Source: a virus. Taken from it: a DNA stretch of 27,099 nt. The notes beneath the pieces were generated by a model. That model ran no database searches. It had not been told where the DNA came from and worked only from the letters and a program-made list of their open reading frames with translations. Shown here piece after piece: positions 9,001 to 27,099 of this stretch (within the stretch, counting starts at the first letter, position 1; the number at the start of each line of letters is the position of its first letter). The translations under genes and the position numbers were made by a program. The stretch spans positions 1-27,099 of the IMG/VR virus record IMGVR_UViG_3300006101_000052; one strand, 5' to 3'.

Positions 9001-12000
9001 ATTACTGGAGTTACTATTGTAGCAGCCGGATTTGGTTATGTTAACGCACCATACGTTACTGTTCTTGGTACTGGTGAGGGTGCAATTATTCGTACTGTGA
9101 TCAATTCGATAGGAAAAATAACTGGTGTAACTATTATTAATTCTGGAGAAGGATATAGTAGTTCAACAGAATGTCTCGTTCGCAGTTACTCTGCTCTAAT
9201 AAAAAGCGATGATACTGCAAGCGGTGCTTGGAGTATTGTATCCTATAATACTACTAGTAAACTCTGGACTCGATCATCAACACAGTCATATGACGTGAGA
9301 AAATATTGGAGATATGCTGATTGGTTTGGCTCATATACAGATCCAACTTCTGGAAAAATACTGTTCACAGCTACACAATTTACTGCTCCGGATTTTTCAG
9401 TTGCAACATTAAATGAATTAAATTCAATTGGTGCAACAGTTGGAGAAACAGTTAAAGTTAGAACGGTAGGTACCGGTGGATGGTTGTTGTTATACAAATA
9501 TGCTAACTCTACAAGTGTAGATTGGACACAATCTTACGCTACTGTTGCTATACAAAATGGAACAGTCCAGTTTAACTCAAATCTATATTCTTTCTCTGGA
9601 ACTGATATAGGTTATGATTCTAACATATTTGATAACAGTGAATTTGATGTGGAAGCAAGCACTGAATTACGAATTATCTTAACTGCAATTAAACATAAGA
9701 TTTTAATCGGCGACTTAAAACAGTCTTATCTAAACTTATTCTTAAGCAGTGTTCGATATGCACATAGCGAACAACCATTTATAGATTGGATTTTTAAAAC
9801 AAGTTTCATCCGCGCCACACATAATGTCGGAGCATTGAATCAACCTGTTAATTATCCTGTTGATAATTTAAGTAACTTCCAAGATTATGTTGCAGAGGTT
9901 AAACCTTACAGAACTAAAATTAGAGAATATATTAGCGATTATACTGCGTTAGATTCTAGTTCTAGCTCAGTGACTGACTTTGATTTGCAACCTACATTTG
10001 AAGGTACTAGCGTTACTGCCATCAACGTTACTGCATCTAATAATATGATTGTAAGTTCCGATTCAAATGTTCAAAAATATCCTTGGAAATTTTGGTTAGA
10101 TAATGTAGGCTATAAGATACTTGAAATTAATGTTACTAATGGTGGTAATGGATATGTTAATGTTCCGCAAGTAGTTATTACTAGTCATAGCGGAGCAGGA
10201 GCAGTTGCAACTGCATTTATTGCAAATGGTATTGTTACTAGAGTAGTAGTTGTTTCTAGTGGTAGTGGCTATTTGTCTGCGCCAACAATTACATTTAATG
10301 GCGGTCTCGGCGCTAATGGAACGTCTGCTAAAGCAGTGGCTATTATAGGTGACAGCTTGGTTAGAACAAATCTAATCGGATTAAAATTTGATAGGATTGA
10401 TCAATCATACTATATGACAACGTTAGAGCAAGTTGATAAATTTGTTGGAATATATCCTCGATTACAATTTGCATTGTCTTGGGCTCCGGATGTTCGTATC
10501 GGACAATCAAAAGTTACCATAAATGGTACACAAATTCTTAGAGAATTGTACACCATCGCAGTGATTAAATCAACTACTAATGGATACACACAGTACACTG
10601 GTACTATTACCTTTGTCACTGCTCCAGCTACTGGAAGTAAGATTGTAGTTACTTACAGTAAAGATATGTCAGTATTATCTGCTACAGATCGTATTCAATT
10701 CTACTATAATCCTACAACAGGACAATTAGGAAAAGATTTATCTCAGTTAATGCTTGGTATCGATTATGGTGGGGTACAAGTTAACGGATTAGGATTTAAT
10801 GTAAGCGGCGGTTGGGGGTCATCACCGTTCTACTCAGAAGCCTGGGCTAACAGAGATCCAAATTTCAACGACTATTATGTACAAGTAGGAGCAAACTCTC
10901 ATGTGTTTGTATTACCATACGAACCGCCTGTAGGAACAAATATTAACATTTATTATGTTAGACAAAAAACATTCTCGTACATTTCAAATGGTGCGTCAAC
11001 CGGATACTCATTTGATTTAAATATGATGTCTCCAAGAGTTACTGTACAATCTGTAGATACTACCACCAATGTTTCTAGTACATATCAAAAAACTGGAAGC
11101 GGTGGTTTCACTCTTAAAGTTGCAAGTACCGCCGGAGTTGTTGCTGGTATGGGTGTGTACGGTCAAGGATTTTTATCTAGACAGCAGATTCTTAAAGTAG
11201 TTGATAGCACAACATTAACCTTAACAGAGATTCCAGATAACATAACTTTACAAAGAACTTACACTACTGTAGGAAGTTCGTTTTCGACTATTAAATTATC
11301 AGATACTACAGGTATTCTTCCTGGCATGATTATTACAGCGAATGTAACAATAACACCGGCATTCCCTGAAACGCCATACCAAGTTCCTGCTTTTGTATCT
11401 GGACAAAAAGTATTAAGTGTTATTGATCTAACAACAATTACAATAAGCGCAATTCCGGATGTTCCATTATTAAACGGCAATAATGTAACATTTACTTCAG
11501 TTCCTACTCAAGGAGATCTATTAGTATTTTCAAACATAGCTGGAAGTTTTGTATTAAAACTTAATAGTGTAACTGGATTAAAAGCAGGTGATGTTGTTAC
11601 AAGTGCCGGTACTAATTTTACGTATGATACTGTTATTGCACCTAATGGTGTTGATACTGCAAATAATTGTGTTACTTTGAATCAAGTATTGTTAACAAAC
11701 ATTCCAAGTGGTAATCCAATAACATTTACAAGAACACTTATTGAACCAGTCGATGTTATTATTAGTGCATCGGGAACAATTCTTTTATCAAATCCGTATT
11801 CGTCTGGTACAATTATTACTGGCGGCACTGGATATTCAGTATCAGACATCTTAACTGTAGTTGGCGGAACACATTCAATAGCCGCGCAGATAAAAGTTAC
11901 AGCAGTTGCGATGGGAGTAATTACTCGATTTAGTATCATTAACCAGGGAGAGTATTCAACTGTTCCACCAAATCCTATAACAGTAACAGGCGGAACTGGA

Positions 12001-14850: not shown

Positions 14851-14870
14851 CATAGTAGATAATAATCATT

Positions 14871-14878
14871 GATAAATA
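14871..14878 (+). promoter_or_regulatory. T4-type late promoter, GATAAATA
   Basis: The octamer GATAAATA matches the T4 late consensus TATAAATA at 7 of 8 positions. It lies 20 bp upstream of the ATG at 14899, in the 48-bp gap after the giant gene, and no -35 element is apparent. In T4-like phages this motif is read late in infection by host polymerase with the phage late sigma factor and sliding clamp. Its recurrence ahead of 19092 and 20661 supports it. Confidence 0.65.
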
Positions 14879-14898
14879 TAACATAAAGAGAGATCAAA

Positions 14899-15507
14899 AT
14901 GCAGAGTAAAGACGTAACAGGAATTCATATTGAAGGTCATATTAAAATTCATGACCCTATTTCTAAAGAAATTTACATTAATAAACGCAATGCAATCCAC
15001 TACGAAAACATAAGTGTTGCGCTTGCGCAGTCTCTTTCTAACAGTTCCAATGGATTTATCTATCAAATGGCGTTTGGAAATGGCGGGACAAGCATTGATC
15101 CTACTGGTATTATTACGTATTTGACACCTAATACTAGCGGAACTAATGCTAGCCTATATAATCAAACGTATCAAAAAGTAATTGATCCAAACTCTGCAAC
15201 TAATATAGATCCAACTCGTAATTTTACAGAAATTCGACATGTAACCGGTACAAACTATACTGATATATTTTGTACTTGTTTATTAGACTACGGTGAGCCT
15301 AGTGGACAAAGTGCATATGACACAACTGCGACTGGTGAAACCACTTATATTTTTGATGAGTTGGGATTGAAGAGTTACAGCGCAACAGGACAAAGTTTAC
15401 TATTGACTCACGTTATTTTTCATCCTGTACAAAAAAGTTTAAATCGTTTGATTCAAATTGATTATACAGTGCGTATTCAAAGCCTTACTGGCTTAGTAAA
15501 TGTTTAA
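14899..15507 (+). CDS. Conserved phage structural protein (202 aa), function unknown
   Basis: This 202-residue protein has no signal peptide or membrane segment. Visible features are an N-terminal beta region with IHIEGHIKIHDP and IYINKRNAIHYEN, a short helix (SVALAQSLS), an FGNGGTS motif near residue 56, and a C-terminal beta region ending in QIDYTVRIQSL. It resembles a conserved protein found beside large structural genes in T4-like marine phages, but I cannot give it a T4 gene number. The ATG at 14899 is preceded by a purine-rich AAAGAGAGA and a late promoter, so it is probably the first gene of a late unit that includes the fibre genes. A virion role is inferred from position. The next gene starts 10 bp downstream. 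Confidence 0.85.
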   Translation: MQSKDVTGIHIEGHIKIHDPISKEIYINKRNAIHYENISVALAQSLSNSSNGFIYQMAFGNGGTSIDPTGIITYLTPNTSGTNASLYNQTYQKVIDPNSATNIDPTRNFTEIRHVTGTNYTDIFCTCLLDYGEPSGQSAYDTTATGETTYIFDELGLKSYSATGQSLLLTHVIFHPVQKSLNRLIQIDYTVRIQSLTGLVNV

Positions 15508-15517
15508 GGAATAGACG

Positions 15518-17719
15518 ATGACATATACAGTTCAATTTACTGATTCTACTAATCCTTCAAAACCTTCTATCACAGTTGCAGACGGTGCGCTTAATACACA
15601 AACAAGTTTGACATTTCCTGGAAAAAATTACGCAGGATATGCTCCTGTTATTGCTGGAGACTTGCTACATTTATTAGAAAATTTTGCTAATTCAACTGCA
15701 CCTGCAAATCCTGTACAAGGTCAATTGTGGTTTGACACTAAAAATAACAGTAATGTTCTTATGGTGTATGATGGCAACAGTTGGGTCGAAGCTGGAAATT
15801 TAAAGAAAGCACCTTATGCAAGTGCTCCTAGTGTAGCATCAAGCAGTGCCGGAGATCTATGGGTAGATACAACTAACAGTCAGCTGTACTTATTTTCTGG
15901 TTCATCATGGTTATTGATTGGACCGCAATTTAGTCAAGGTGCCGCAACTGGTCCAGTTGTTGAATCAATTGTCGATACTGGCAATCTTGCACATTCGGTC
16001 ATTTCATTATATGCGTTAAGTTCAGAAAATAATGTATCTTATAGACTTGCAATAATAAGTTCAGACACTTTTACTCCTAAGTCTACAATTACAGGTTATA
16101 GTTCAATCAATGAAGGTATTAATTTGTATGCTAGTACCTCATCTAGTACTGGATCCAGTGCAATATTATGGGGAACAGCTAACAGTGCTAACGCATTAAT
16201 GGTTAACAATAATGCCGTTGCCGCTTCTAACTTTTTAAGAAGTGACGTTGCAAGTACAACTAATCAAGCTCTAAATGTTAGAAGCCCAAATGGCATAAGC
16301 ATTGGTAACGATTTAAGTTTGAGCATTATACAAAATTCAAATAACTTTACATTTAGTTCTTCAAAGAGTGCTAACAGTATAGAATTTAACGTAAACAAAC
16401 AAATTTTAGTACATCTAGATCCTAATGGTAAAGTTGGTATAGGACCTGGAAATGTTAGTCCAGTGTCTGCACTAAGTGTTGCAGGTGTAGTAACAGCAGG
16501 AACACCGGGAACACCAGGCGGACTAGCAGTAACTGACGGTGGCAGTCCGGGATCGACAACTGTATTTTCAGTTAGCCCCTCGGCAGGGATAGCTACATCA
16601 CTTAATACTACTTTTACTGGAAGTACAGTAACTATTGCCGGTGGACAACTAATTTTAAGTGCAGCCACCGCAGATAGTTCAGTAATTTTACCACCACCGA
16701 CTACAGGTACCCCGTTATACGATATCGGTAGCCAATTTCAACCGTTTAGAAATGTTTATGCTCAAAACTTCGTGGGTGCGTTTGTTGGTAACTTCGCTGG
16801 TTCAGTTACTGGTTCAGTTACTGGAACTGCCGATGCTCTTAAAACTCCTACATTGTTTACTGTAGCAGGTGACGTTGCAACGCCAACAACAGATCCAGGC
16901 GTAAGTTTTACTGGAAGTCAACCGTTAGGAACTGCGGTTCTTAATGTTGCAGTACAACCACAAATGATTGGCGGGCAAAAACTTGCATCCTCATCTTTAA
17001 ATAGTGACAAGATACTAGTATTACAAAACGATACCAATCTTGTAAAAATGACAAAAGCAACATTCTTGCAAGGTGTAGCACAGTACGCAATACCAGTTGG
17101 GTCTATTATGCCTTATGCAGGTCCAGCATCTTCTGTGCCACCCGGATGGTTGCTGTGTGATGGAAGTGAAGTTAATAGAACTACCTATAATACATTGTTT
17201 AATTTATTCTTGTATACATACGGAGCACAAAAATCTCTCAAAGGCAACAACACATTTGCATTGCCAGACTTGCGTGGACGTTTCCCATTAGGGCTTGATA
17301 ACATGAATAACTATGGTAATATTCCAGGGTTCGTTCAAGCAACTACTTCTGGAGGAACAACAGTTAATACTGGCGGACAAATTGGTGCGGCAGGAAGAAT
17401 TACACCATTAGCGGCCAACGTTCTTGGCAACTATGGCGGAAATCAAAGTGTGGTTCTTGATGTTACAAATATCCCACAGCACACACATAATCTACAAAGT
17501 GCTAATAATGTTCAATACTATGCACCTGGAGCAGAAGGTGCTACAAGTGATACTAGTGCTAATGCAAATTTTGGATATGGTATACCTACTGGTGCAGGCA
17601 ATACAGGTTATGGTATTTCAACTACTGGAAATGTAAATGCTCCTACAGTTGGCCAGGGTGTAAACACAATGAATCCATATTTGTTCATTAACTATATAAT
17701 TTTTACCGGTAGCCTATAA
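15518..17719 (+). CDS. Tail fibre / short-fibre-like adhesin with C-terminal tail-collar domain
   Basis: The 733-residue protein begins with the domain shared by this fibre family (about 1-200): GKNYAGY at 35-41, [10 protein letters not shown] at 49-58 and QGQLWFDT at 67-74, followed by a second '[13 protein letters not shown]' repeat. The middle is a beta-rich shaft with GTPGTPGG, the [19 protein letters not shown] chaperone-like motif and a GSVTGSVTG repeat. The C-terminus has the phage tail-collar signature: VGSIMPYAG...PPGWLLCDG from about residue 527, [18 protein letters not shown] near 651, and a final [11 protein letters not shown] strand. Collar domains of this type occur in T4 gp12-like fibres, where histidines of the HxH kind bind metal. 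The role is inferred to be irreversible attachment. The start is supported by AAGGA at 15506-15510, which overlaps the upstream stop codon. Confidence 0.9.
16799..16822 (+). repeat. Tandem 12-bp repeat (two perfect copies) in the fibre shaft
   Basis: GGTTCAGTTACT occurs twice head to tail and encodes GSVTGSVT, followed by a third diverged GT unit. In-frame repeats of this kind lengthen or shorten a fibre shaft by slippage without changing frame. Confidence 0.85.
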
Positions 17720-19044
17720 TGACCTATGCAATAACTTTAACAAATGGTAGTACATTAACAGAAATTAGCAATGGTGTTATTGATCAAACTCACACTGATC
17801 TTACATTAATTGGACAAAATTATACCGGCTACGGTACTTTTTTAAATGACAACTTTGTTCATCTATTAGAAAACTTTTCAAATACAATACAACCACCGAA
17901 TCCGATTATGGGACAGTTGTGGTATGATACTAGTTCAAATGTATTAAAAGTTTATAACGGAACTAATTTTACGCCTACTGGAAATACAGTAGTTGCATCT
18001 TCAGCACCAAGTGGCCTTGCAACAGGACAACTTTTTATTGACAGTACAACTAGCCAATTATATTTTAATGATGGATTAGAGACGAACCTCGCAGGACCAA
18101 TTTACACTAAGGCACAAGGCCCATCGGGTTTCGAAGTAGTAGATGTATTTGACGTATATGGAACTAGTCAAACCATTGTTAAACTGCTAGTCGGAAACAC
18201 CCTATTAGGTATTTTTAGTAAAACAGCATTTACCCCAAATTCACCTATTGACCAGTATACTTCATCTGCATCAATAACTGGTACTCAAATTGGGTCAACT
18301 TTAACTGTTACGGCTGTTACATCTGGTACACTCAGTATAGGACAAACCCTAGTTGGAACTGGGATTCCTGCTGGCACTATTATAACTGAATTTTTATTAG
18401 GTCCCGGTGGTCAAGGGCAAGCTCAAGGCGGTGTTGGCACATATGGAGTAAGCACAAACGCTAATGTGCCGTCTACAAATATAACTGCAATTTATGGAAG
18501 TATCAAAATTGGTTTTAATGTAGGTACATACGGCGGAATACAATTTAATGTTCCGACCCTACAAGCTAACTATTTGTTATCTCCTGCCGGAACTTTATTA
18601 AATTCTAGCAGTTTTGTCAGTGCATCGGGTGATTCTACTATTTCTAATGGTGGACTTACAATACAACCAACAGCAACTGAGCCTGCACTGGTGTTAGGTT
18701 CAGCAGGACAAACTCAAATAAATGTTAATGCTAATAGCACAAACGTTTTTCAAATACAATCAGTGTTTGCTAATCAAGATTTTGATATTACATTAAAGAC
18801 TGGATCTACAAGTGCATCTGCATTGCACATTATTGCTAGTACACAGCGTACTGGAATCTATACTAATGCTCCACAAGCTACACTAGATGTAAATGGAACA
18901 TTTAGAATAGCATCAGGAAATGCCCCAGCTCACAATAATTCAGTAGGTGTCACTGGTCAAATTGCATGGGATTCCGGGTACATTTATGTTTGTACAGCAA
19001 CAAATACCTGGGTAAGAGCGGCTCTTTCAAGCACCTCTTGGTAA
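17719..19044 (+). CDS. Tail fibre / adhesin paralogue with an inserted beta module
   Basis: The 441-residue protein shares its N-terminal domain with its two neighbours: GQNYTGYG (32-39), [12 protein letters not shown] (44-55), [11 protein letters not shown] (61-71) and a second [14 protein letters not shown] repeat. The conserved segment '[11 protein letters not shown]...[10 protein letters not shown]' is split by about 75 residues of a different module (about 18265-18490) containing [27 protein letters not shown] and a Gly/Gln-rich turn. The C-terminus carries [12 protein letters not shown] and [19 protein letters not shown], a tip seen in other marine phage fibres. It has neither a collar nor an ADLAE domain. 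The ATG overlaps the upstream stop by one base (TAATG) and has no clear Shine-Dalgarno sequence, so translation is probably coupled. A role in host recognition is inferred. Confidence 0.85.
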
Positions 19045-19057
19045 CAGTCCAAATTAT

Positions 19058-19065
19058 GATAAATA
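19058..19065 (+). promoter_or_regulatory. T4-type late promoter, GATAAATA
   Basis: GATAAATA lies 26 bp before the ATG at 19092, in the 47-bp gap between two fibre genes. It is identical to the motif ahead of 14899 and differs from the T4 late consensus at one base. It would allow the third fibre gene to be transcribed separately from the first two. Confidence 0.65.
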
Positions 19066-19091: not shown

Positions 19092-20633
19092 ATGTCATAC
19101 ACAATTAATCATTTTAACGGCACACCATTAGCAACGATTGCCGACGGTACAGTAAACACTAGCACCGATCTTACCCTAATCGGTAAGAATTATGCCGGGT
19201 ATGGCCAAGCACAAAACGACAATTTTGTCTGGTTGCTAGAGAATTTTGCCAGTGCATCTCCAGGCCCATCCAACCCACAAGCTGGTCAAATATGGTATAA
19301 CACTACATTAAACAAATTGCAGTTTTACGATATTAATGGTACTTGGCGTACAACAGGCGGTGCATCAATTGGCAGCTCATTCCCAACAAATTTAACAGTA
19401 GGCGATTTTTTCTTTAATACTGCTAGTAATCAATTATATGCATATACTGGAGTGGGAAATCCTCCATTTACACTTATTGGTCCTCAGGAAGTTGTAGGTG
19501 CAATGACTACACAAATGTTATCAACTACTGTAACTGACAGCAATAATGTACACAGACCAGTTATCCAAGGCGTAGTTGATGGCCAAGTAGTGTTCATGAT
19601 TAGTAGCACATCATTCTTATTACCTACAGGTCAAGTCACTGGATTTGATCAAATTAATCAAGGTATTACTTTAACAGGAACATTAGCCGCTGATAATGGA
19701 GTTACTGCTGGCAGTTTTGAATTTACTGGTACGGCAACGAACGCAAAAGCATTAAACGGTGTGTCTGCTAGTAGTTTTGTTACATCATCGGCCGCTCAAT
19801 TTACAGCTTCGGCTACTTTTTCAGACACTGGATTTGTAATTGGCAATCCAACAGCTAAATTATCGATTGCTAATGATTCTACTACAGGAGTTCCGACACT
19901 TAAAAACGTTAATGGTCCTCAAATCAACTTTGTAGTAACCTCCGGTGCTAGTACTATTAATCCAATGACAATTAATGGTACTGATTTATTACCCGGAATC
20001 ACATCGACTTCTAGTTTAGGTTCACAAACTTTACAGTGGTTAAATGTCTATGCTACAAACTTTTATGGTACAGCAACAAACTCTAATTATTTAAGTGTTG
20101 GTGGTACCTACGTTTCAGCAACTACAGGTGTTCCTGGCGGTAACGTACTCAGTGTTGCGGCAAGAGATACAAGCGGCAATTTAACAGCCAATGTGTTTAA
20201 TGGTAATGCTACAAGCGCAAACTATGCCGACTTGGCTGAAAAATATCTACCATCGCCTGAATATCCTAACTATTCACCAGGTACAGTAGTATGTGTAGGC
20301 GGATCAAAAGAAATTTGTCCAGCAACTTACGGTTCTAAAGCTATTGGTGCAATAAGTACCAACCCTGCTTATATGATGAATCAGGATCTAGCTGGTGGTA
20401 TATATGTAGCACTTAAAGGTCGTGTACCGGTTAGATTAGTAGGCGGATGCACTAAGGGCGATTTAATTGCACCCTATGGCAGTGGTCAAGCCGCAAGTAT
20501 AGGCAATCCGGCTGGTACGAATAGTGGCGGTAACTTGTTTAGTTCAGATGATACTGCACCTATTTGTTTTGCAGTGGCACTAGCAGATTGCACAAACTCA
20601 GATGAAACACTAGTCGAATGTGTTATTTTATAA
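19092..20633 (+). CDS. Tail fibre / adhesin paralogue with C-terminal ADLAE (Peptidase_G2-like) domain
   Basis: The 513-residue protein has the family N-terminal domain: GKNYAGYG (31-38), DNFVWLLENFAS (43-54), NPQAGQIWYN (61-70) and then GDFFFNTASNQLYAY. The shaft includes KALNGVSASSF and SLGSQTLQWLNVYATNFYGTA, both typical of phage fibres. From Y378 a distinct domain begins with YADLAEKY, followed by SPGTVVCVGG, AIGAISTNPAYMMN, VALKGRVPVRL and a C-terminal LADCTNSDETLVECVIL. This layout resembles the Peptidase_G2-type intramolecular domain that helps fibre folding; whether it self-cleaves cannot be judged here. AAGGA at 19075-19079 is a plausible but distant ribosome binding site (12 bp spacing). 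A late promoter lies just upstream. Confidence 0.85.
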   Translation: MSYTINHFNGTPLATIADGTVNTSTDLTLIGKNYAGYGQAQNDNFVWLLENFASASPGPSNPQAGQIWYNTTLNKLQFYDINGTWRTTGGASIGSSFPTNLTVGDFFFNTASNQLYAYTGVGNPPFTLIGPQEVVGAMTTQMLSTTVTDSNNVHRPVIQGVVDGQVVFMISSTSFLLPTGQVTGFDQINQGITLTGTLAADNGVTAGSFEFTGTATNAKALNGVSASSFVTSSAAQFTASATFSDTGFVIGNPTAKLSIANDSTTGVPTLKNVNGPQINFVVTSGASTINPMTINGTDLLPGITSTSSLGSQTLQWLNVYATNFYGTATNSNYLSVGGTYVSATTGVPGGNVLSVAARDTSGNLTANVFNGNATSANYADLAEKYLPSPEYPNYSPGTVVCVGGSKEICPATYGSKAIGAISTNPAYMMNQDLAGGIYVALKGRVPVRLVGGCTKGDLIAPYGSGQAASIGNPAGTNSGGNLFSSDDTAPICFAVALADCTNSDETLVECVIL

Positions 20634-20660: not shown

Positions 20661-22025
20661 ATGTCAGCTGTTTTCCAAGGATATATTAACAACGGTGCAG
20701 ATGGAGTAGCGGGTACTACACTACATGTTACTTCAATGACCAGTGGTGCTATTACATTAGGAATGGTGTTGACATCTGGCTCTACAATTCCATCAATTAC
20801 TTATGTTTCTGCCTTTATTAGCGGTACTGGCACAAACAATGGTGGTACTTATACTGTTAATTACAGTCAAAGTTCAGGCACTTCAACCGGCCCTATTACT
20901 ATTGCTGGTAATATGACTACAGTTGCCGCAAATGACTTTAATACAATTCAAGCTGCCATTTCTGGTATTTACGGAAAAGTACCAGCCGGCTACGGACAGA
21001 ATTTAAGCACATTTGATGCCGCGGTTGCTACTGGTGCTAAGATTACTGCCGCACAATGGAATGCATTACAAGCTGATATCACAGCGGTAAATTGGCATCA
21101 ACTTAATGCGGCTCCTGTGTACAACGGAAACCCACTAACTACAGCAACAAATACTGTAAAAATTAGACAAGCTGACCGTGCCGCATATCTTGCAGTTGCG
21201 TTAGCATTATCAAATCCTAGTCCTACTACAATCGGCGGCGTAAGCTATCCAGGTTGTTATGTAAAAGCTGCCACTAATCAATTTACTAATCCGGTTCCAG
21301 GTGCATCAGAAAACGATAACAGTTTCCCAGCAGTTAGCGTTCGCAACCAAAGCTGGGGTAATACTAGTAGCGGTACATCATATGGTACTCAACCATCTGG
21401 TAAACAAAGTGTAATATGCGAAACTACACTAACATTTACTGCACAGGGCGGTTACAGTGCCAATCAAATTGCAGAATGGTTCTTCCAATCAGGTAGTTCG
21501 ATTACATTTAGCGGTTCTAGACAGTTTGGTACTGTTTCAGGAAAAAATACATCTTGGACAGCATTATTAAACAACATGGGAACTATTAGTTTTAGTTATT
21601 CGGGAGTTACTGCTACCGGTAATCCGGTGTTATCATCCGGCGGATCCGGCCTAACAACATATGGTTGGAACTGGTTCAATAATAATAAAGGTGCAAACGG
21701 TATAGTTATTTGTACTAACAGTCTAGGAACAACAGGTTCAAGTTTGTATGCTCCTAACCAATATACATTAACTGCTAGTATAGATGCAACGGGCAGTATC
21801 TTAACATTTATTGCAACATTCTCGGACTTATCAACAGCCTATACAAAGACACAAGCAGACGGTGCAGTAGGCGGAAACCCAAATGATACTACTACGTTTA
21901 GTATTGATGATCCGGTTGACGGCACACTAACCAGCATTATGAATGTTAAGTATGCAACTGGACCATATGTGGATGTTACTGCCTATTTGCCAACGGTTGC
22001 AACACCAGTTCTACTAGGAACTTAA
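20661..22025 (+). CDS. Conserved phage structural protein (454 aa)
   Basis: The 454-residue protein is beta-rich and Gly/Ser/Thr-rich. Residues about 8-80 form a 'GTTLHVTSMTSGAITLGMVL...GTGTNNGGTYTV' module, the same kind as in the giant protein and in the fibre at 17719. Next comes a helical segment with ANDFNTIQAAISGIYG and ITAAQWNALQADI, then a beta domain with QIAEWFFQSGSSITFSG and NTSWTALLNNMGTISFSY. Proteins with the FFxxGG..I.F...R....W..LL...GT motif are conserved among T4-like marine phages as virion proteins of unknown role. The start is well supported by AAAAGGA at 20647-20653 and a perfect late promoter. It is the last gene of the late block. No terminator hairpin was found after its stop. 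Confidence 0.85.
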   Translation: MSAVFQGYINNGADGVAGTTLHVTSMTSGAITLGMVLTSGSTIPSITYVSAFISGTGTNNGGTYTVNYSQSSGTSTGPITIAGNMTTVAANDFNTIQAAISGIYGKVPAGYGQNLSTFDAAVATGAKITAAQWNALQADITAVNWHQLNAAPVYNGNPLTTATNTVKIRQADRAAYLAVALALSNPSPTTIGGVSYPGCYVKAATNQFTNPVPGASENDNSFPAVSVRNQSWGNTSSGTSYGTQPSGKQSVICETTLTFTAQGGYSANQIAEWFFQSGSSITFSGSRQFGTVSGKNTSWTALLNNMGTISFSYSGVTATGNPVLSSGGSGLTTYGWNWFNNNKGANGIVICTNSLGTTGSSLYAPNQYTLTASIDATGSILTFIATFSDLSTAYTKTQADGAVGGNPNDTTTFSIDDPVDGTLTSIMNVKYATGPYVDVTAYLPTVATPVLLGT

Positions 22026-22048: not shown

Positions 22049-22077
22049 TTGACAAGCTAATTACTGTAGTGTATTAT
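22049..22077 (+). promoter_or_regulatory. Sigma70-type promoter, probably early
   Basis: TTGACA at 22049-22054 and TATTAT at 22072-22077 are separated by exactly 17 bp. This is a full -35 consensus and a -10 differing from TATAAT at one base. Start would be near 22084, about 14 bases before the ATG at 22098. The -35 box lies inside the short palindrome GCTTGACAAGC (22047-22057), which could be an operator, although it is short enough to be chance. This architecture differs from the -10-only late promoters upstream. Confidence 0.8.
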
Positions 22078-22097
22078 ATTACATTACGGAGTTATCT

Positions 22098-22448
22098 ATG
22101 GATGAAAGAATTGAAAAAGCGTTTGCTGTAGCCAATTACATGTCTACGTTGAGCAATCAAAGACGAATAATTTTAGAAGAATACCAGCAAAAATTAGTTT
22201 ATTATGTTAACGGTGCTACCTTTAAAATCACACCAGAACTAATTAATTTTGCAAAAACAGCACTGGACCTAGGTCATACTACAGATGTAGCATTTGTAGA
22301 TTCTAATAATTTCCCATTAATTGTAGCAGATGTTCAAGAATTTTTTGATAATATCGTTGAGATATACTTTTCATCTACAAATGAGTATGCAGTCAAGTAC
22401 GCAGATTTAAAAAGCAAAAGAAAAATTTCTGATATAGTTGAGTTATGA
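22098..22448 (+). CDS. Conserved small phage protein (116 aa), function unknown
   Basis: The 116-residue protein is charged, without signal peptide or membrane segments. It has a helical N-terminus (MDERIEKAFAVANYMSTLSNQRRIILEEYQQ), a short beta stretch (KLVYYVNGATFKI), then further helices. I recognise it as a type of conserved hypothetical protein of T4-like cyanophages but know no function. The start is supported by CGGAG at 22086-22090 and the sigma70 promoter. It is the first gene of an overlapping six-gene set. Its TGA overlaps the next ATG (ATGA), which implies translational coupling and suggests that its level is tied to that of the glycosyltransferase-like proteins. Confidence 0.8.
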   Translation: MDERIEKAFAVANYMSTLSNQRRIILEEYQQKLVYYVNGATFKITPELINFAKTALDLGHTTDVAFVDSNNFPLIVADVQEFFDNIVEIYFSSTNEYAVKYADLKSKRKISDIVEL

Positions 22449-23293
22449 CAACTGGTGCAGTAATCTTTTCTCAAAACAATTCTAATATTGACTACACTAA
22501 ACTGGCAATATTTGCCGCCAGCAGGGTTGAAAAATATCTAGATATTCCTGTAAGTCTTATCACAGACAATAAAGATTGGCTTTTGAAAGCATACCCAGAT
22601 CATAAATTTGATCAAGTGATTGAAATACCTTACGTTGAAGCTAATCAAAGACGAACATTTTATGATGGCAGCCTTGCAAGCAAGATGCTCGAATGGCGAA
22701 ATTTGTCAAGAAGTCAAGTGTATGATTTAACTCCATATGATAGAACATTAGTTATAGACAGTGATTATATAATTAATTCTTCTATTTTAAAACCAGCCTT
22801 AGATAATCAATACGATTTTCAAATTTATCATAACAGTTTTGATTTGACTGGTAACAGAGATGTAGGCGCATTTAATCGAATCAATGAATATTCAGTTCCT
22901 TTTTATTGGGCTACAGTTTTTATCTTTAATAAAAATTCTATAATGCAATGTTTTTTTGATCTTGTAGAATATATTAAATCTAATTGGATTTATTTTAGAA
23001 CACTGTATGGAATAGATGCACCTGTATATAGAAATGATGTTGCATTTAGTATTGCCATCCACATAATGAACGGAAAAACAAATGGAGAGTTTACAGTAGA
23101 GCTTCCCGGAAAAATGATATTTTCAGCAGATAGAGATATCTTAATTAGTACAGACAATGATAAGATGAAATTTCTAATTGAAAAGAAAGATTTTTATGGA
23201 GAGTATACTCTGGCTAAAACTACTGGACTAGATGTACATGTAATGAATAAATTTAGTCTTAGTCGATATATTGACGGAGGCAATGGTGTCTAA
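22445..23293 (+). CDS. Glycosyltransferase-like protein, GT-A type (282 aa)
   Basis: The 282-residue protein begins with a strand, helix and strand (AVIFSQNN, IDYTKLAIFAASRV, PVSLITDN), as in nucleotide-sugar-binding GT-A folds. A DxD motif follows in VIDSDYI (D106 and D108), the usual metal and sugar-nucleotide site. NDVAFSIAIHIMNG near residue 200 and HVMNKFSLSRY near the end are shared in layout with the next gene. The two are clearly paralogues and resemble the glycosyltransferase 8-like proteins of marine T4-like phages. Acceptor and donor cannot be told. Possible targets are virion proteins, phage DNA or host surface glycans. The ATG overlaps the upstream stop by 4 bp. Confidence 0.75.
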   Translation: MTTGAVIFSQNNSNIDYTKLAIFAASRVEKYLDIPVSLITDNKDWLLKAYPDHKFDQVIEIPYVEANQRRTFYDGSLASKMLEWRNLSRSQVYDLTPYDRTLVIDSDYIINSSILKPALDNQYDFQIYHNSFDLTGNRDVGAFNRINEYSVPFYWATVFIFNKNSIMQCFFDLVEYIKSNWIYFRTLYGIDAPVYRNDVAFSIAIHIMNGKTNGEFTVELPGKMIFSADRDILISTDNDKMKFLIEKKDFYGEYTLAKTTGLDVHVMNKFSLSRYIDGGNGV

Positions 23294-24125
23294 AGGATTT
23301 TTAATTTTTGCACAAAATACCGACATTGATTATGTCAAACAAGCCTACGCATTAGCGTTAAGTATTAAACACAGCCAGCCGACTATCAATAATGTTTCTT
23401 TGGTAACAAATAGTGTTGTACCTGAAAAATATCGTAAAGTATTTGACCAAATAATTCCTATTCCTTGGTTTAAGGCAGATGGAAACAGTCCGCTTGCGGC
23501 AGAACATCGCTGGCAATTATATCATGCAAGTCCCTATTCTGAAACCATTGTGTTAGATGCTGACATGTTGTTGTTAGAAGACATTGCCAGTTGGTGGGAT
23601 TATTGTTCTCCTTATGATGTTAAATTTTGTTCAAAGATTAATAATTATAAGTTAGAAAATATACTAGTTGATACATTTCATAGAAAAACATTTATTGCAA
23701 ATAAATTAACTAACCCTTATTTTGCCCTACACTATTTTAAAAAGGGTGATAAGGCACATGAATTTTATAAAGTATTGGAATTTGTAATTAATAATTGGGA
23801 ATGGTGTAACACAAAATTTGCACCAGAGCTATACCAGGAATGGCCCAGTATGGATCTAGCAACAGCTATTGCTATAGAAATCACAGGAACTCATGACGAG
23901 GTGATTGACAACTGTAGTCCGTTATCGTTTATTCATATGAAGATACCACTGCAAGGATGGACTATGATGTCTAATAGTTGGCAAGATACTGTACCGTTCG
24001 TGTTGAACTCAAAAGGTGAATTAATAGTTGGCAATATTAAACAGACTAAGTTATTCCATTACGTAGAAAAGAATTTTATAACATCTGATATATTAACACG
24101 ATTGGAGAATTTAAATGCCTCGTAA
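23283..24125 (+). CDS. Glycosyltransferase-like protein, GT-A type, paralogue of the preceding gene (280 aa)
   Basis: I place the start at ATG 23283, not at the in-frame TTG 23271, because ACGGAGG ends just upstream of the ATG; this is a strong but closely spaced site. The 280-residue protein has FLIFAQNTDIDYVKQAYALALS, then VSLVTNS, the DxD motif in IVLDADMLLL (D92 and D94), MDLATAIAIEITG near 195-210, and HYVEKNF near the C-terminus. The order matches the upstream protein, which supports a tandem duplication followed by strong divergence. The DxD motif and the following acidic/hydrophobic strand fit a retaining GT8-like enzyme, but the substrate is unknown. It overlaps the previous gene by 11 bp and the next by 11 bp. 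Confidence 0.8.
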   Translation: MVSKGFLIFAQNTDIDYVKQAYALALSIKHSQPTINNVSLVTNSVVPEKYRKVFDQIIPIPWFKADGNSPLAAEHRWQLYHASPYSETIVLDADMLLLEDIASWWDYCSPYDVKFCSKINNYKLENILVDTFHRKTFIANKLTNPYFALHYFKKGDKAHEFYKVLEFVINNWEWCNTKFAPELYQEWPSMDLATAIAIEITGTHDEVIDNCSPLSFIHMKIPLQGWTMMSNSWQDTVPFVLNSKGELIVGNIKQTKLFHYVEKNFITSDILTRLENLNAS

Positions 24126-24696
24126 AAAATATGTTCCGCCAGCTCCTATCGTAATGAAATTTTATCTGCATTACGATAAAGATACAGGCATTTTAAAAAG
24201 TATATCTAATGATGTATCGTATCACGGATACAGTAATTTTGAAATATCAGCTGGCGACTATAAATTGTTTATCGAAGGAGTTAAACGTCCTCAAGACTAT
24301 TTAATTTTAAGTAATAACGATGAAATTACTCTAGTAAAGGTAATAGATCAATCTTACGAATTTAAAAATAAAATGTTTGAGTGGATTAATATGCCACCTA
24401 CTACTGATACAGAAGTTACAGTCGAATGGATTAAGTCTACAAGGCATTGGAAATTTTCTTTATCTGATTCTGCTAAATCATCTGTACTTCCAGATTCGAA
24501 CACTGTAATATTATTTTTTATAACGTTAGCAGATGATTTTGACTTCTTAATAAGAAGTATTGCACTTAATATAAATGAGCTAGCTATAAAGGATTTGTAC
24601 GTTCCTTTTAGATACGATATTGAAGATCAAATAGCTAAAATATCAATGTCTACAAAACTACATTTTAAAAGTTACGGATTGATTATAAATGATTAA
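24115..24696 (+). CDS. Conserved phage protein (193 aa), function unknown
   Basis: The 193-residue protein starts with a basic, proline-rich MPRKKYVPPAPIVMK segment, then a beta-rich region (FYLHYDKDTGILKSISN, GDYKLFIEGVKRPQDYLI). The C-terminal half is mixed (WKFSLSD, NTVILFFITLADDFDFLIRS, KLHFKSYGLIIND). No enzyme motif is recognised. Similar short proteins with the 'FYLHYDxxTGxI' opening occur in other T4-like phages as far as I recall. It sits between two glycosyltransferase families and overlaps both neighbours (11 bp and 8 bp), so it is probably made together with them. It could be an accessory or virion-associated protein; this is inference. Confidence 0.8.
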   Translation: MPRKKYVPPAPIVMKFYLHYDKDTGILKSISNDVSYHGYSNFEISAGDYKLFIEGVKRPQDYLILSNNDEITLVKVIDQSYEFKNKMFEWINMPPTTDTEVTVEWIKSTRHWKFSLSDSAKSSVLPDSNTVILFFITLADDFDFLIRSIALNINELAIKDLYVPFRYDIEDQIAKISMSTKLHFKSYGLIIND

Positions 24697-25585
24697 AGTT
24701 ATAGAACAAGATATTATATTTCTCAGCTACGATGAACCCAACGCTGAAAAAAACTATGCAGACTTATGCAACAAAGTACCTTGGGCAAAGCGTGTGCATG
24801 GTGTTAAAGGTAGCGATGCCGCACACAAGGCATGCGCCGCACTAAGTGAAACAGAATACTTTGTTACAGTAGATGCAGATAATATTGTAGACCCTAAATT
24901 CTTAGAAGTTGAAATTGATATTGATGCTCTCGGATTGACACCGGATCATGTGTTCAGCTGGTGCGGCAAAGTTCATGTTAATGGATTAATGTACGGCAAT
25001 GGCGGCTTAAAATTATGGACACGTAAATTTGTCAACAATATGAAGACTCATGAAAACTCAGATCCCGATGATACTAAGGGACTAGTAGAGTTTTGTTTTG
25101 ACGATAAGTACTATCAATTCAACGAAAATTTCAGTGAAAGTTTTACCAATGCAACTCCATTCCAAGCATGGAGAGCAGGCTTCCGTGAAGGCGTAAAGAT
25201 GTCATTAGATCAAGGTGCTAAGGTAGAAAAACTACAAACTGTTTGGTGGCAAAATTATCATAGATTACTCATATGGGCAAGTGTGGGTGCTGATGTAGAA
25301 AATGGAATTTGGTCAATTCTTGGAGCTAGAGAAGGAGCCTATTTGACCAATTGTACAGATTGGGATTATAGCAATGTACGTGATTTTGAATACTTAACAA
25401 AACGTTGGTTAGATAATCATGAAGGATCAGATCCAGAAAAGACCACTGCTTATATTAATTTTTTAGGCGATGAACTTAGAGAAAAATGCGAACTAGAAAT
25501 TAGTAATTTGGATCCGTCCGGTAGCAAATTTTTTAAAACTGTTTATAGCAACACCCCGAGAATAATACGTAAACGCAATGTATGA
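24689..25585 (+). CDS. Glycosyltransferase-like protein, second family (298 aa)
   Basis: The 298-residue protein opens with a strand (DIIFLSYDEPNAEKN), then WAKRVHGVKGSDAAHKACAA, and a DxD motif in VTVDADNIV (D62 and D64), the arrangement of a short GT-A domain. YGNGGLKLW (102-110) and WRAGFREG (161-168) are shared with the next gene and probably line the donor or acceptor pocket. The C-terminal part is helical, with WSILGAREGAYL and LTKRWLDNH. It belongs to a family different from the 22445/23283 pair. Such proteins are common in T4-like marine phages, and their acceptors are generally unknown. It overlaps the upstream gene by 8 bp without an obvious ribosome binding site, so translational coupling is likely. 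Confidence 0.75.
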   Translation: MIKVIEQDIIFLSYDEPNAEKNYADLCNKVPWAKRVHGVKGSDAAHKACAALSETEYFVTVDADNIVDPKFLEVEIDIDALGLTPDHVFSWCGKVHVNGLMYGNGGLKLWTRKFVNNMKTHENSDPDDTKGLVEFCFDDKYYQFNENFSESFTNATPFQAWRAGFREGVKMSLDQGAKVEKLQTVWWQNYHRLLIWASVGADVENGIWSILGAREGAYLTNCTDWDYSNVRDFEYLTKRWLDNHEGSDPEKTTAYINFLGDELREKCELEISNLDPSGSKFFKTVYSNTPRIIRKRNV

Positions 25586-26918
25586 TATTTTCTTTATTTC
25601 TAATAAGTTAAATGACAAAAACTTTTCTGTTTTAAAAGAAAGATTTCCATTGGCTAGGCAAGTTTCATCATTTGATGATGCTAAAAAGAAATCTTTTACC
25701 AAATTCTTTTGGATAGTTTGGCCTGATTTAATAGTCAATGACGACTTTAATTTTGATTATCAAGTTCCAGAATGGGATAAAGACTATATTCACGTATTTA
25801 AAAATAACGAATTCTATGACGGAATAATACTGTTTCCAAAATCAAAATCTGTATCTAAAAAAGAAATTGATTATAGATTTTTTGTTAATAAAAAAGAAAT
25901 AGATGTACAAGCAAGTACACCTGCACAATATGATATTTTTAATATTAGTACCTTTGAAGAATATCAATCAGCAATGGAGACAGCTACTACTGATCTATTT
26001 TGGGTTATCCCGCACGAAGTAGAACCGTTAGATGATTTTAAATTCGATTTATATTTTAGTCATCATAATATGCAAGAACGAAATATGAATCACGTGTTTA
26101 AAAATGTCGACGTAGATGAAAACAAATATAACGGAATAATGCTTTTATCAAAATTTAAGCCTCTTGCAAAGAGAGAATTTAATTTTAGATTCCCAGTCAA
26201 TAAAAAAGAATACCCTGTTGTTGCTAGTAAGTTAAAACCTTATGACATTGTTTTTATCAGTTATAACGAAAAAAATGCAGACGATAATTGGAACAAATTA
26301 ATATCAAAATTTCCTAGAGCCCAGAGAGTTCATGGAGTTAAAGGAATACATAATGCTCACATTGCCGCCGCTAAATTAACAACTACTCCGATGTTTTGGG
26401 TAGTAGATGGTGATGCTGTTATTAAAGACTCTTTTGATTTTAGCTTGCTATTGCATCATTGGGATAGAGATACTGTATATGTATGGCGCAGTCAAAATCC
26501 AATTAATAACTTAGAATATGGTTACGGTGGTGTTAAATTGCTACCTAGGAATCTTACTTTAAATATGGATGTTAATAGTGTGGACATGACTACTAGCATT
26601 AGCACTAAATTTAAAGCAATGGACCAAGTAAGTAACATTACAGCATTTAATACAGATGCATTTAGTACTTGGCGTTCAGCTTTTAGAGAGTGTTGTAAAC
26701 TAGCAGTAATTAACAATGAGGAGGCATTGGCTAGATTACACTTTTGGTGTCAATTAAATACCTATGTTCCATTCGGTAGCTATGCTTACATGGGTGCTAT
26801 TCAAGGTCGTCAATACGGTGAAAAAAATGCCTCCAATCCGGAGGCACTGGCCAAGATAAATGACTTTATTTGGCTACAAGATCTTTGGCAAGAGGAAAAA
26901 TCTCAGCTATCACTTTAG
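25578..26918 (+). CDS. Glycosyltransferase-like protein with two degenerate N-terminal domain copies (446 aa)
   Basis: Residues about 222-446 are homologous to the preceding 298-aa protein: YDIVFISYNEKNADDNW, AQRVHGVKG (248-256), VVDGDAVI with DxD at D277 and D279, YGYGGVKL (314-321) and WRSAFREC (365-372). Residues 2-112 and 119-217 are two partial copies of the start of the same domain, each beginning YDIF.IS and containing FW(I/V), DDF.FD, HVFKN and a final (F/P)VNKKE. In these copies the DxD position reads WPDLIV and PHEVEP, so they should not be catalytic and may bind an acceptor or aid assembly. The ATG overlaps the previous stop by 8 bp and lacks a clear ribosome binding site. The 3' end contains the thyX terminator and overlaps thyX by 53 bp in antisense. 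Confidence 0.8.
   Translation: MYDIFFISNKLNDKNFSVLKERFPLARQVSSFDDAKKKSFTKFFWIVWPDLIVNDDFNFDYQVPEWDKDYIHVFKNNEFYDGIILFPKSKSVSKKEIDYRFFVNKKEIDVQASTPAQYDIFNISTFEEYQSAMETATTDLFWVIPHEVEPLDDFKFDLYFSHHNMQERNMNHVFKNVDVDENKYNGIMLLSKFKPLAKREFNFRFPVNKKEYPVVASKLKPYDIVFISYNEKNADDNWNKLISKFPRAQRVHGVKGIHNAHIAAAKLTTTPMFWVVDGDAVIKDSFDFSLLLHHWDRDTVYVWRSQNPINNLEYGYGGVKLLPRNLTLNMDVNSVDMTTSISTKFKAMDQVSNITAFNTDAFSTWRSAFRECCKLAVINNEEALARLHFWCQLNTYVPFGSYAYMGAIQGRQYGEKNASNPEALAKINDFIWLQDLWQEEKSQLSL
26821..26846 (-). terminator. Intrinsic terminator for thyX, located inside the opposing gene
   Basis: Read on the minus strand, TGCCTCC, a 5-base loop (GGATT) and GGAGGCA form a perfect 7-bp GC-rich stem followed directly by seven T residues. 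It lies 19 bp past the thyX stop codon. On the plus strand the same hairpin has no T tract after it, so it should act only on the thyX transcript. Confidence 0.85.
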
Positions 26919-27099
26919 CACAAGCAATAGCAACTTCCTGGTGCTCTTTCTGTGTACCATTTGCACTACGTAATTCAATAAAATGAATCCAACTGCGTAG
27001 TGTGCCGTTCATATATAACCGACTTTCAATAAGTCCTTCCGGCAGAACAGCACGAGCTTGTTCTTTGGCAATACCTTTTTCAATGGCCCACGTATAAGC
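26866..27099 (-). CDS. thyX: Flavin-dependent thymidylate synthase ThyX, C-terminal part (5' partial)
   Basis: The minus strand encodes the last 77 residues of a protein whose start lies beyond the window end. It reads AIEKGIAKEQARAVLPEGL, then SRLYMNGTLRSWIHFIELR, then NGTQKEHQEVA and a helical end. ARAVLP and the LRSWIHFIELR...TQKEHQE block are conserved in ThyX, where this region helps bind dUMP and FAD; the RHRxxSxNxxSxRY motif would be upstream and is not visible. The enzyme makes dTMP from dUMP using methylenetetrahydrofolate and NADPH, and supports phage DNA synthesis. The stop is TAA (26866-26868 on the plus strand). It is transcribed towards the glycosyltransferase operon, overlaps its last gene by 53 bp, and has its own terminator. 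Confidence 0.93.
   Translation of the reverse strand, partial: AYTWAIEKGIAKEQARAVLPEGLIESRLYMNGTLRSWIHFIELRSANGTQKEHQEVAIACAKVIAEIFPLAKDLVAK

Follow-up and report, generated by a model that had tools for sequence, protein, structure and literature searches.

Organization of the operon

The window, the whole 27,099-nucleotide stretch of viral DNA analysed here, is a fragment of a jumbo phage related to Atu_ph07 and Phosso. Six genes, p1 to p6, lie behind four tail-fibre or structural genes and end at a convergent thyX gene (Table 1). The first three of the preceding genes matched tail and virion proteins in PHROGs, and the fourth was assigned to the same class by its position. Consecutive operon genes overlap by exactly 4, 11, 11, 8, and 8 bp, as the initial annotation had counted, and direct reading of the sequence agrees with it that the p5 and p6 starts have no good Shine-Dalgarno sequence. 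The N-terminus of p6 consists of two degenerate half-repeats. Sugar-nucleotide genes are absent from the operon of the window. The earlier description of the genes holds, but the promoter and RNA hairpin at the operon start (22049-22100) went unmentioned in it, and this control region is what is new here.

Table 1. Features of the operon and its surroundings in the window
Feature	Position	Strand	Description
Late promoter motif	14871..14878	+	T4-like, GATAAATA; before 202-aa structural gene; contrast class
Four tail-fibre/structural genes	15518-17719, 17719-19044, 19092-20633, 20661-22025	+	Precede operon
Late promoter motif	19058..19065	+	T4-like, GATAAATA; before tail-fibre gene tfC; contrast class
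Promoter	22049..22077	+	Sigma70-type, TTGACA-17-TATTAT; 11/12 consensus bases; -10 box 22072-22077
Hairpin	22053..22100	+	Pairs p1 Shine-Dalgarno GGAG 22088-22091; -10 box inside
p1	22098..22448	+	116 aa; conserved; function unassigned; first operon gene
p2	22445..23293	+	282 aa; glycosyltransferase-like, family 1; invariant D105-x-D107
p3	23283..24125	+	280 aa; glycosyltransferase-like, family 1 (glycogenin/GT8-like); invariant D92-x-D94
p4	24115..24696	+	193 aa; all-beta, fast-evolving; possible substrate- or glycan-recognition subunit
p5	24689..25585	+	298 aa; GT-A glycosyltransferase-like, family 2; invariant D62-x-D64; most conserved gene
p6	25578..26918	+	446 aa; p5 paralogue; invariant D277-x-D279; facultative
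thyX 3' end	26866..27099	-	Convergent; PHROGs thymidylate synthase, E 9e-25; right operon border

Conservation of the block

In a redundant set of fetched relatives, p1 to p5 are consecutive behind tail-fibre genes at 216 of 221 loci. Their order, strand, overlaps, and place behind the tail fibres are kept down to about 52% p5 identity. The p1/p2 and p2/p3 overlaps recur in all relatives compared (95/95 and 102/102), and those of p3/p4, p4/p5, and p5/p6 in 95, 99, and 95%, respectively, indicating that the overlaps are more than chance. The p6 gene directly follows p5 only in the closer relatives of the window. The conserved unit is p1-p5 and p6 is optional; joint conservation of the six genes, as first suggested, applies to the non-scattered p1-p5 and fails for p6. 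Gene content varies only in the 3' part of the block, with the p1-p5 core fixed. In a more distant lineage, overlapping radical-SAM genes occupy the place of p6 and are followed by sugar-nucleotide enzymes, with a UDP-glucose dehydrogenase or an epimerase/dehydratase gained in these relatives. The corresponding slot in Phosso and Atu_ph07 also contains radical-SAM genes. Radical-SAM genes at this place point to a kind of chemistry that is seldom anticipated next to tail-fibre genes. A 116-aa gene in the Phosso slot resembles p1 in length and in its 4-bp overlap, but was rejected as a p1 homologue by profile scores near zero.

Searches of 50,697 cultured-phage records by tblastn gave no match to p2-p6 or to distant p3 and p6-type homologues, and one p6 relative and one p1 relative found nothing in cultured phages even at E 10. 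A GTDB scan found a relative on five MAG contigs, four of them with p1, p2, p3, and p5; the contigs allowed no safe host call. The block is present in hundreds of metagenomic contigs and in no cultured phage at the sensitivity used. A major environmental lineage of giant phages, widespread yet never cultured, may therefore count among its core traits a sugar pathway that has escaped study.

Transferase-like families and possible accessory proteins

The initial annotation recognized four transferase-like products from two families, and homology bears this out. The p2 and p3 proteins are homologous (BLASTP E 1e-10; profile-profile 99.1%), as are p5 and the C-terminus of p6 (BLASTP E 1e-25; profile-profile 99.9%), and no link was detectable between the two pairs. 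By these comparisons, the two glycosyltransferase-like families are real. The DxD motif is invariant in p2 (23/23), p3 (23/23), p5 (24/24), and p6 (20/20). None of the six products scored above the cut-off in Pfam, PHROGs, or NCBIfam; the PF00535 scores of p5 and p6 (13.5 and 13.6 bits) are below the curated cut-off of 23.3. In a Foldseek search of the PDB with the AlphaFold model of p5 (pLDDT 87, pTM 0.86), the top matches were all glycosyltransferases (E 7e-5), with TM-scores of only about 0.3. The computed model has a GT-A fold. The p3 profile weakly matched glycogenin chains (E 0.03-0.06), and PF01501 was not found in nine p3-carrying records. We infer that all four proteins probably transfer sugars, p2 and p3 as GT8-like and p5 and p6 as GT2-like GT-A enzymes.

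The p1 protein had no match of meaningful score in Pfam, PHROGs, NCBIfam, or PDB sequences. The p4 model (AlphaFold; pLDDT 92, pTM 0.59) gave only weak Ig/FNIII-like matches among solved structures (E 0.04), and in BFVD it matched only proteins from uncultured phages, none of them characterised (E 2e-20). Longer p4 homologues bear weak CBM5/12-like repeats.

Promoter and hairpin at the operon start

A sigma70 match of at least 10/12 was found in 121 of 154 p1 leaders and in 3 of 154 shuffled leaders, and the T4-like late motif occurred in only one of the 154. The late motif is kept before the 202-aa structural gene in 74/95 relatives and before tfC in 81/153. In a 356-kb relative, the genes found behind sigma70 promoters encode ligase, exonuclease, and HNH proteins, and those found behind late motifs encode tail-tube, baseplate, and virion proteins. 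From this motif distribution, the operon seems to be expressed early, from its own sigma70-type promoter.

The segment 22049-22103 folds with -14.9 kcal/mol (z -3.4). The hairpin z is below -2 in 69 of 78 relatives and near 0 in controls, and the mean unpaired probability of the Shine-Dalgarno sequence is 0.24 in p1 leaders versus 0.41-0.57 in controls. Since the -10 box is inside the hairpin, RNA begun at the promoter (predicted start about 22084) lacks the 5' arm. We infer that the hairpin silences late read-through and that early transcripts are translated. Against the hairpin model, RNAalifold found no consensus structure in the gapped MAFFT leader alignment, and the promoter is better kept than the hairpin in distant lineages. 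Support for the hairpin comes instead from single-sequence folds, controls, and pair counts, the last with a structure drawn from one sequence (L020), which favours the L020 fold over slid versions. The p1 leader had no match in Rfam.

The hairpin might instead be a repressor operator or the site of a phage translational repressor rather than a read-through insulator, which would explain the overlap of promoter and palindrome. Across the -10 box, the inner stem reads as a near-perfect palindrome, and the hairpin is kept without sigma70 boxes in some lineages (L030, L066, L190, and L203), so that blocking read-through is not its sole use there. However, stems of unrelated sequence share their geometry and pair the Shine-Dalgarno sequence (L030, L064, L146), which fits an RNA structure better. 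The promoter-in-hairpin device also recurs at other early and late genes, as in the 356-kb relative, where it occurs at a ligase gene of early type that follows a gene of late type. We consider an operator or repressor site distinctly unlikely.

In T4 genes e, soc, 49, and I-TevI, a helix hides the Shine-Dalgarno sequence in longer read-through messages, and a promoter in the 5' arm yields messages without that arm (PMC3014915). Likewise, the p1 Shine-Dalgarno sequence is paired in read-through RNA and the promoter lies in the 5' part of the hairpin. The difference is in the timing. T4 has a late promoter inside and silences early read-through (PMC3014915), whereas the operon has a sigma70 promoter inside and would silence late read-through. 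The arrangement at p1 is a reversal of the best-known T4 translational switch.

Proposed function and alternatives

We tentatively propose, with slightly more doubt than confidence, that p1-p6 form an early, hairpin-insulated sigma70 operon that transfers sugars to host surface glycans and thereby excludes superinfecting phages. Host RNA polymerase would read the operon early from its own promoter behind the tail-fibre genes. In read-through messages from the late tail-fibre genes, the folded hairpin would mask the p1 ribosome-binding site. Messages begun at the internal promoter would lack the 5' arm and allow p1 translation, and the overlapping starts would couple translation of p2 to p6. 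The p2, p3, p5, and p6 enzymes, with p1 and p4 as possible accessory proteins, would spend host nucleotide sugars on remodelling an LPS-type receptor. Exclusion via receptor glycans would explain the linkage to tail fibres. The initial annotation left phage DNA, virion proteins, and host glycans as targets. The predicted early timing, the block of late read-through predicted from the hairpin, the tail-fibre linkage, and a search that detected no ThyA-type hydroxymethylase in the 356-kb relative favour host glycans over virion proteins, with DNA the least favoured. Several points count against host glycans. Phage surface-glycan clusters are usually hypervariable, unlike the syntenic p1-p5 core. 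There is no flippase, polymerase, or membrane protein among the six products, and the p5 fold matches include the peptide- or protein-glycosylating enzymes SunS, ThuS, and a PBCV-1 capsid enzyme.

These fold matches would suit enzymes that act on virion proteins, with the neighbouring tail fibres as the likeliest target; they would be made early for modification during fibre synthesis, and p4 would recognize the fibre. The fixed position directly behind the tail-fibre genes is consistent with this. Divergence of p4 and p2 tracks tail-fibre divergence more than the rest of the operon does (partial Mantel 0.17-0.31 and 0.11-0.28), a pattern that also suits the host-glycan proposal, although these values are only suggestive because the genes differ in rate and length. 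SPASM enzymes often act on peptides; in L332, a radical-SAM/SPASM enzyme carries the p4 N-domain as a fusion, and the radical-SAM genes of Phosso and Atu_ph07 point the same way. Phage virion glycosylation also exists (Freeman 2023, as cited in PMC12619734). However, an early-class promoter whose hairpin should shut off late read-through is the opposite of what late virion modification would need, and we regard virion targets as rather unlikely. The promoter-in-hairpin gives a direct timing prediction separating host-surface, virion, and DNA targets.

The early-class promoter, the conserved core with its transferase folds, and thyX, which adjoins the operon in the closer relatives, could also fit glycosylation of hypermodified genome bases against restriction, as by the T4 alpha- and beta-glucosyltransferases. 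This is very unlikely, as the linkage of the operon is to tail-fibre rather than DNA genes and PF00303 (ThyA, dCMP/dUMP hydroxymethylase) was found in none of nine possibly incomplete records, including the 356-kb relative, versus 9 of 14 controls. A Tet/JBP search was uninformative, as it gave no match in any control, and nothing on ThyX acting as a hydroxymethylase was found in the literature searched. That the overlaps are ordinary packing of neighbours without one shared pathway is more improbable still. Overlaps of 4, 8, and 11 bp are common in phages and p6 moves independently, but p1-p5 keep order, strand, and overlaps to about 52% identity, under one promoter.

Relation to known systems

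The pathway was initially thought not to be described, which holds only in part; tail-fibre-linked clusters of transferases and radical-SAM genes are known in pelagimyophages, and the operon is a variant of such clusters. The pelagimyophage host recognition cluster has several glycosyltransferases, GT8 most represented, beside tail-fibre genes, together with UDP-glucose 6-dehydrogenase and radical-SAM cassettes, and O-chain change against co-infection was proposed (Zaragoza-Solas 2020, PMC7029224). Glycosyltransferases are grouped with tail-fibre genes here too. That region is hypervariable, whereas the five-gene core persists throughout a jumbo-phage lineage with gene order and overlaps intact, and the passages of PMC7029224 consulted report no such promoter or hairpin. 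Cyano- and other jumbo-phage sugar clusters hold paralogous glycosyltransferases, with a proposed surface-polysaccharide change pre-empting other phages (Iyer 2021, PMC7824862). They are sporadic, polymorphic, and rich in sugar-synthesis genes; the operon here is fixed and has no sugar-nucleotide genes. The superinfection-exclusion lipoprotein Llp of phage T5 is early and acts on the receptor of the phage's own binding protein, but blocks FhuA without an enzyme or glycan (PMC9586334), whereas our proposal involves both. Mycobacteriophages likewise encode their own glycosyltransferases, with experimentally established capsid and tail-tube targets (Freeman 2023, via PMC12619734); the targets of the present operon are predictions from sequence and models.

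In a broader reading, which we consider unlikely, these uncultured giant phages would link to their tail fibres a modification pathway that makes an unusual glycan or glycopeptide, and their genomes would use promoter-in-hairpins as general two-way insulators. The pathway would pair a glycosyltransferase core that never varies with a module that can be swapped, either another enzyme of the p5 type or a set of one to five radical-SAM/SPASM enzymes accompanied by sugar-nucleotide genes. The insulators would prevent expression of early genes from late messages and of late genes from early ones.

Conservation and composition of the operon

Searching IMG/VR with p5, the fifth of the six overlapping operon genes (p1-p6), returned at least 599 matching stretches, and a second round seeded with a diverged p5 reached relatives at 51-57% identity. 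The six genes lie in the same order downstream of tail-fibre genes in about 140 loci. Genes p1 to p5 are consecutive in 216 of the 221 loci having both p1 and p5, a count of contigs rather than independent events because the loci are redundant and fragmentary; in the other five, a recognisable p4 is the sole missing gene. Overlaps are kept among relatives (4 bp between p1 and p2 in 93 of 95), and p1 and p2 are present in 44 of 49 loci anchored on the upstream 202-aa protein with sufficient downstream sequence. The joint conservation proposed as a check for all six genes holds for p1-p5 and is not supported for p6, which does not directly follow p5 in 64 loci.

The initial annotation placed the six reading frames correctly, with overlaps of 4, 11, 11, 8 and 8 bp; for p3 the correct start is an ATG, the mechanical ORF list giving a TTG as an alternative. 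Its view of four transferase-like products in two families was also borne out. Sequence comparison together with profile comparison relates p2 to p3 (99.1%) and p5 to the C-terminal half of p6 (99.9%), profile comparison detected no relation between the two pairs, and the DxD transferase motif is invariant in all four. For p3, the profile search gave a weak yet coherent match to glycogenin chains (E 0.03). The predicted p5 model is confident (pLDDT 87, pTM 0.86), and glycosyltransferases top its PDB matches (E 7e-5), but with TM-scores of only about 0.3. The two proteins described as unknown, p1 and p4, matched no named family in family searches. Long versions of p4 have repeats that weakly match CBM5/12 (E 0.04 and 0.26), and in L332 its N-domain is fused to a radical-SAM/SPASM enzyme. 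The transferases contain no strongly hydrophobic segment and are predicted to be cytosolic. At its N-terminus p6 contains two half-repeats of its transferase domain; they are degenerate, with a WPD-like motif replacing DxD, and many relatives lack them. A 551-aa p6-type protein occurs on a Neisseriaceae MAG contig from which the other operon genes are absent.

Promoter class and ribosome-binding-site hairpin

A sigma70-type promoter lies in the gap that separates p1 from the last tail-fibre gene. Of 154 p1 leaders, 121 have a match of at least 10/12 (3 of the 154 after shuffling), and one has the T4-like late motif [TGA]ATAAATA. This late motif precedes the 202-aa gene (74/95) and the tail-fibre/structural genes tfC (81/153) and tfD (47/100). 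The meaning of the two classes was calibrated on start regions of a 356-kb relative, the longest operon-bearing contig used, where sigma70 matches of at least 11/12 occur in 26 start regions (2 in shuffles) and the late motif in 28 (3 in shuffles). Among ten genes behind sigma70 promoters, those identified encode ligase, exonuclease, HNH endonucleases and ATPase, with no structural gene among them; among ten behind late motifs, they encode virion proteins, tail tube and baseplate wedge, with no gene of DNA metabolism. We therefore infer that the operon probably carries an early-type promoter within a late gene cluster.

The p1 leader folds across the Shine-Dalgarno sequence (-14.9 kcal/mol, z -3.4), as do those of the relatives L020 (-21.8, z -6.5) and, with a quite different sequence, L030 (-25, z -7.2). 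Over 78 relatives the mean z is -3.6, with z below -2 in 69, whereas the same computation at p2-p6 and tfD gave means between -0.2 and +0.4. A named structure pairs 83.7% of cells in the leader alignment and scores 0.156 for covariation, against 0.139 ± 0.005 for shuffles and at most 0.093 for slid versions, an advantage partly due to its derivation from one alignment member. RNAalifold found no consensus structure on the gapped alignment, and Rfam had no match to the leader. Since the -10 box sits inside the hairpin, a message started at this promoter would lack the 5' arm. Of the distant lineages, 46 of 63 retain the promoter and 21 of 63 the hairpin (z < -2); some lineages have the hairpin only. 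The 5' arm of the p1 hairpin contains an element resembling GATAATTA(C) or CATAATTA, one base away from the late motif ATAAATA; this element is retained in relatives that have lost the sigma70 boxes (L066, L187, L190, L198, L203, L208).

In the 356-kb genome, hairpins of this kind occur at 19 of 460 starts, and eight of them have a promoter, in every case an internal one (Fisher p 0.014). Both promoter classes are nested in this way elsewhere in that genome (L155-L172). These elements suggest a general insulator of early and late translation in this relative. Ribosome-binding-site hairpins are known from T4 genes e, soc, 49 and I-TevI (PMC3014915); there the internal promoter is late, whereas that of p1 appears early-type.

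Coordinates of the features described
Feature	Sequence	Position
p1 promoter, TTGACA-17-TATTAT	window	22049-22077
GATAATTA(C)/CATAATTA element	window	22055-22063
p3 start, ATG (alternative TTG)	window	23283 (23271)
p6 half-repeats	window	25578-26230
Terminator-like hairpin	window	26826-26848, minus strand
Promoter in hairpin	356-kb relative	176290-176967
Promoter in hairpin; clear case, late-type gene behind early-type gene	356-kb relative	209133-210344
Promoter in hairpin	356-kb relative	223465-225565
Clear case, early-type ligase gene behind late-type gene	356-kb relative	223465-224790
Promoter in hairpin	356-kb relative	257231-257962
Radical-SAM run and ~300-aa protein	Phosso (L153)	22653-30802
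Radical-SAM run and ~300-aa protein	Atu_ph07 (L154)	23460-31109
Three tandem radical-SAM genes	K566 (L346)	10597-16086
551-aa p6-type protein	L344	2985-4637
~337-aa Cys-rich-tail protein gene	L012	2562-3575

Possible acceptors

The window operon contains no sugar-nucleotide genes. Cytosolic, early-type, DxD-bearing transferases without such genes suggest that host nucleotide sugars would serve as donors. Host surface glycans may be the acceptor: the operon's position and predicted timing fit, as do the way in which p4 and p2 covary with tail fibres and the published interpretations of jumbo-phage sugar clusters (PMC7824862) and of pelagimyophage clusters (PMC7029224), and we hold this full account tentatively, at slightly under an even chance. 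Glycosylation of the virion would fit the operon's position but not its early-type timing, and seems less likely. A search of the 356-kb relative and eight other records for a ThyA-type hydroxymethylase found none, which makes phage DNA the least probable acceptor. The statements on the operon and promoter classes rest on much safer ground than this choice. Tail-fibre-linked transferase clusters are already known, and the window operon is of that kind; unusual are its invariant five-gene core, its exchangeable radical-SAM part, and the placing of an apparently early-type promoter within a hairpin that covers the ribosome-binding site.

Variation downstream of p5 and genomic neighbourhood

In closer relatives of the window p6 follows p5, and radical-SAM genes are downstream in 0 of 113 loci. 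Of the 64 loci in which p6 is not the next gene, 55 have radical-SAM genes downstream; in 46 one of these starts within 80 nt of the p5 end, mostly overlapping p5. The same gene run includes a UDP-glucose dehydrogenase in L302 and an epimerase/dehydratase in L337. This distant type is also present in two MAG records, whose titles name Red Sea and MED657.

Upstream of the operon, the window, an IMG/VR contig, encodes a 4949-aa structural protein, the 202-aa protein and tail fibres. The 202-aa protein shares 46-52% identity with proteins of the cultured jumbo phages Atu_ph07 (Agrobacterium, 490 kb) and Phosso (Sinorhizobium, 469 kb), which have radical-SAM genes at the equivalent position and lack p1-p6. 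Besides this overlapping radical-SAM run, both encode in that slot a ~300-aa protein with the C-terminal sequence CH(T/S)SCHASCH(S/N)SRSRR, suggestive of a phage protein carrying a RiPP-type modified tail. In the cultured jumbo phage Vibrio phage K566, one of three tandem radical-SAM genes is distantly similar to the gene following p5 in L302. A conserved protein of ~337 aa, encoded among the tail-fibre genes (L012; also L009, L013, L018 and L061), has the Cys-rich C-terminal tail CKTVCGxEC(D/N)HCDK. Within the p6 3' end, a terminator-like hairpin with a T run would be suited to terminate the transcript of the convergent thyX.
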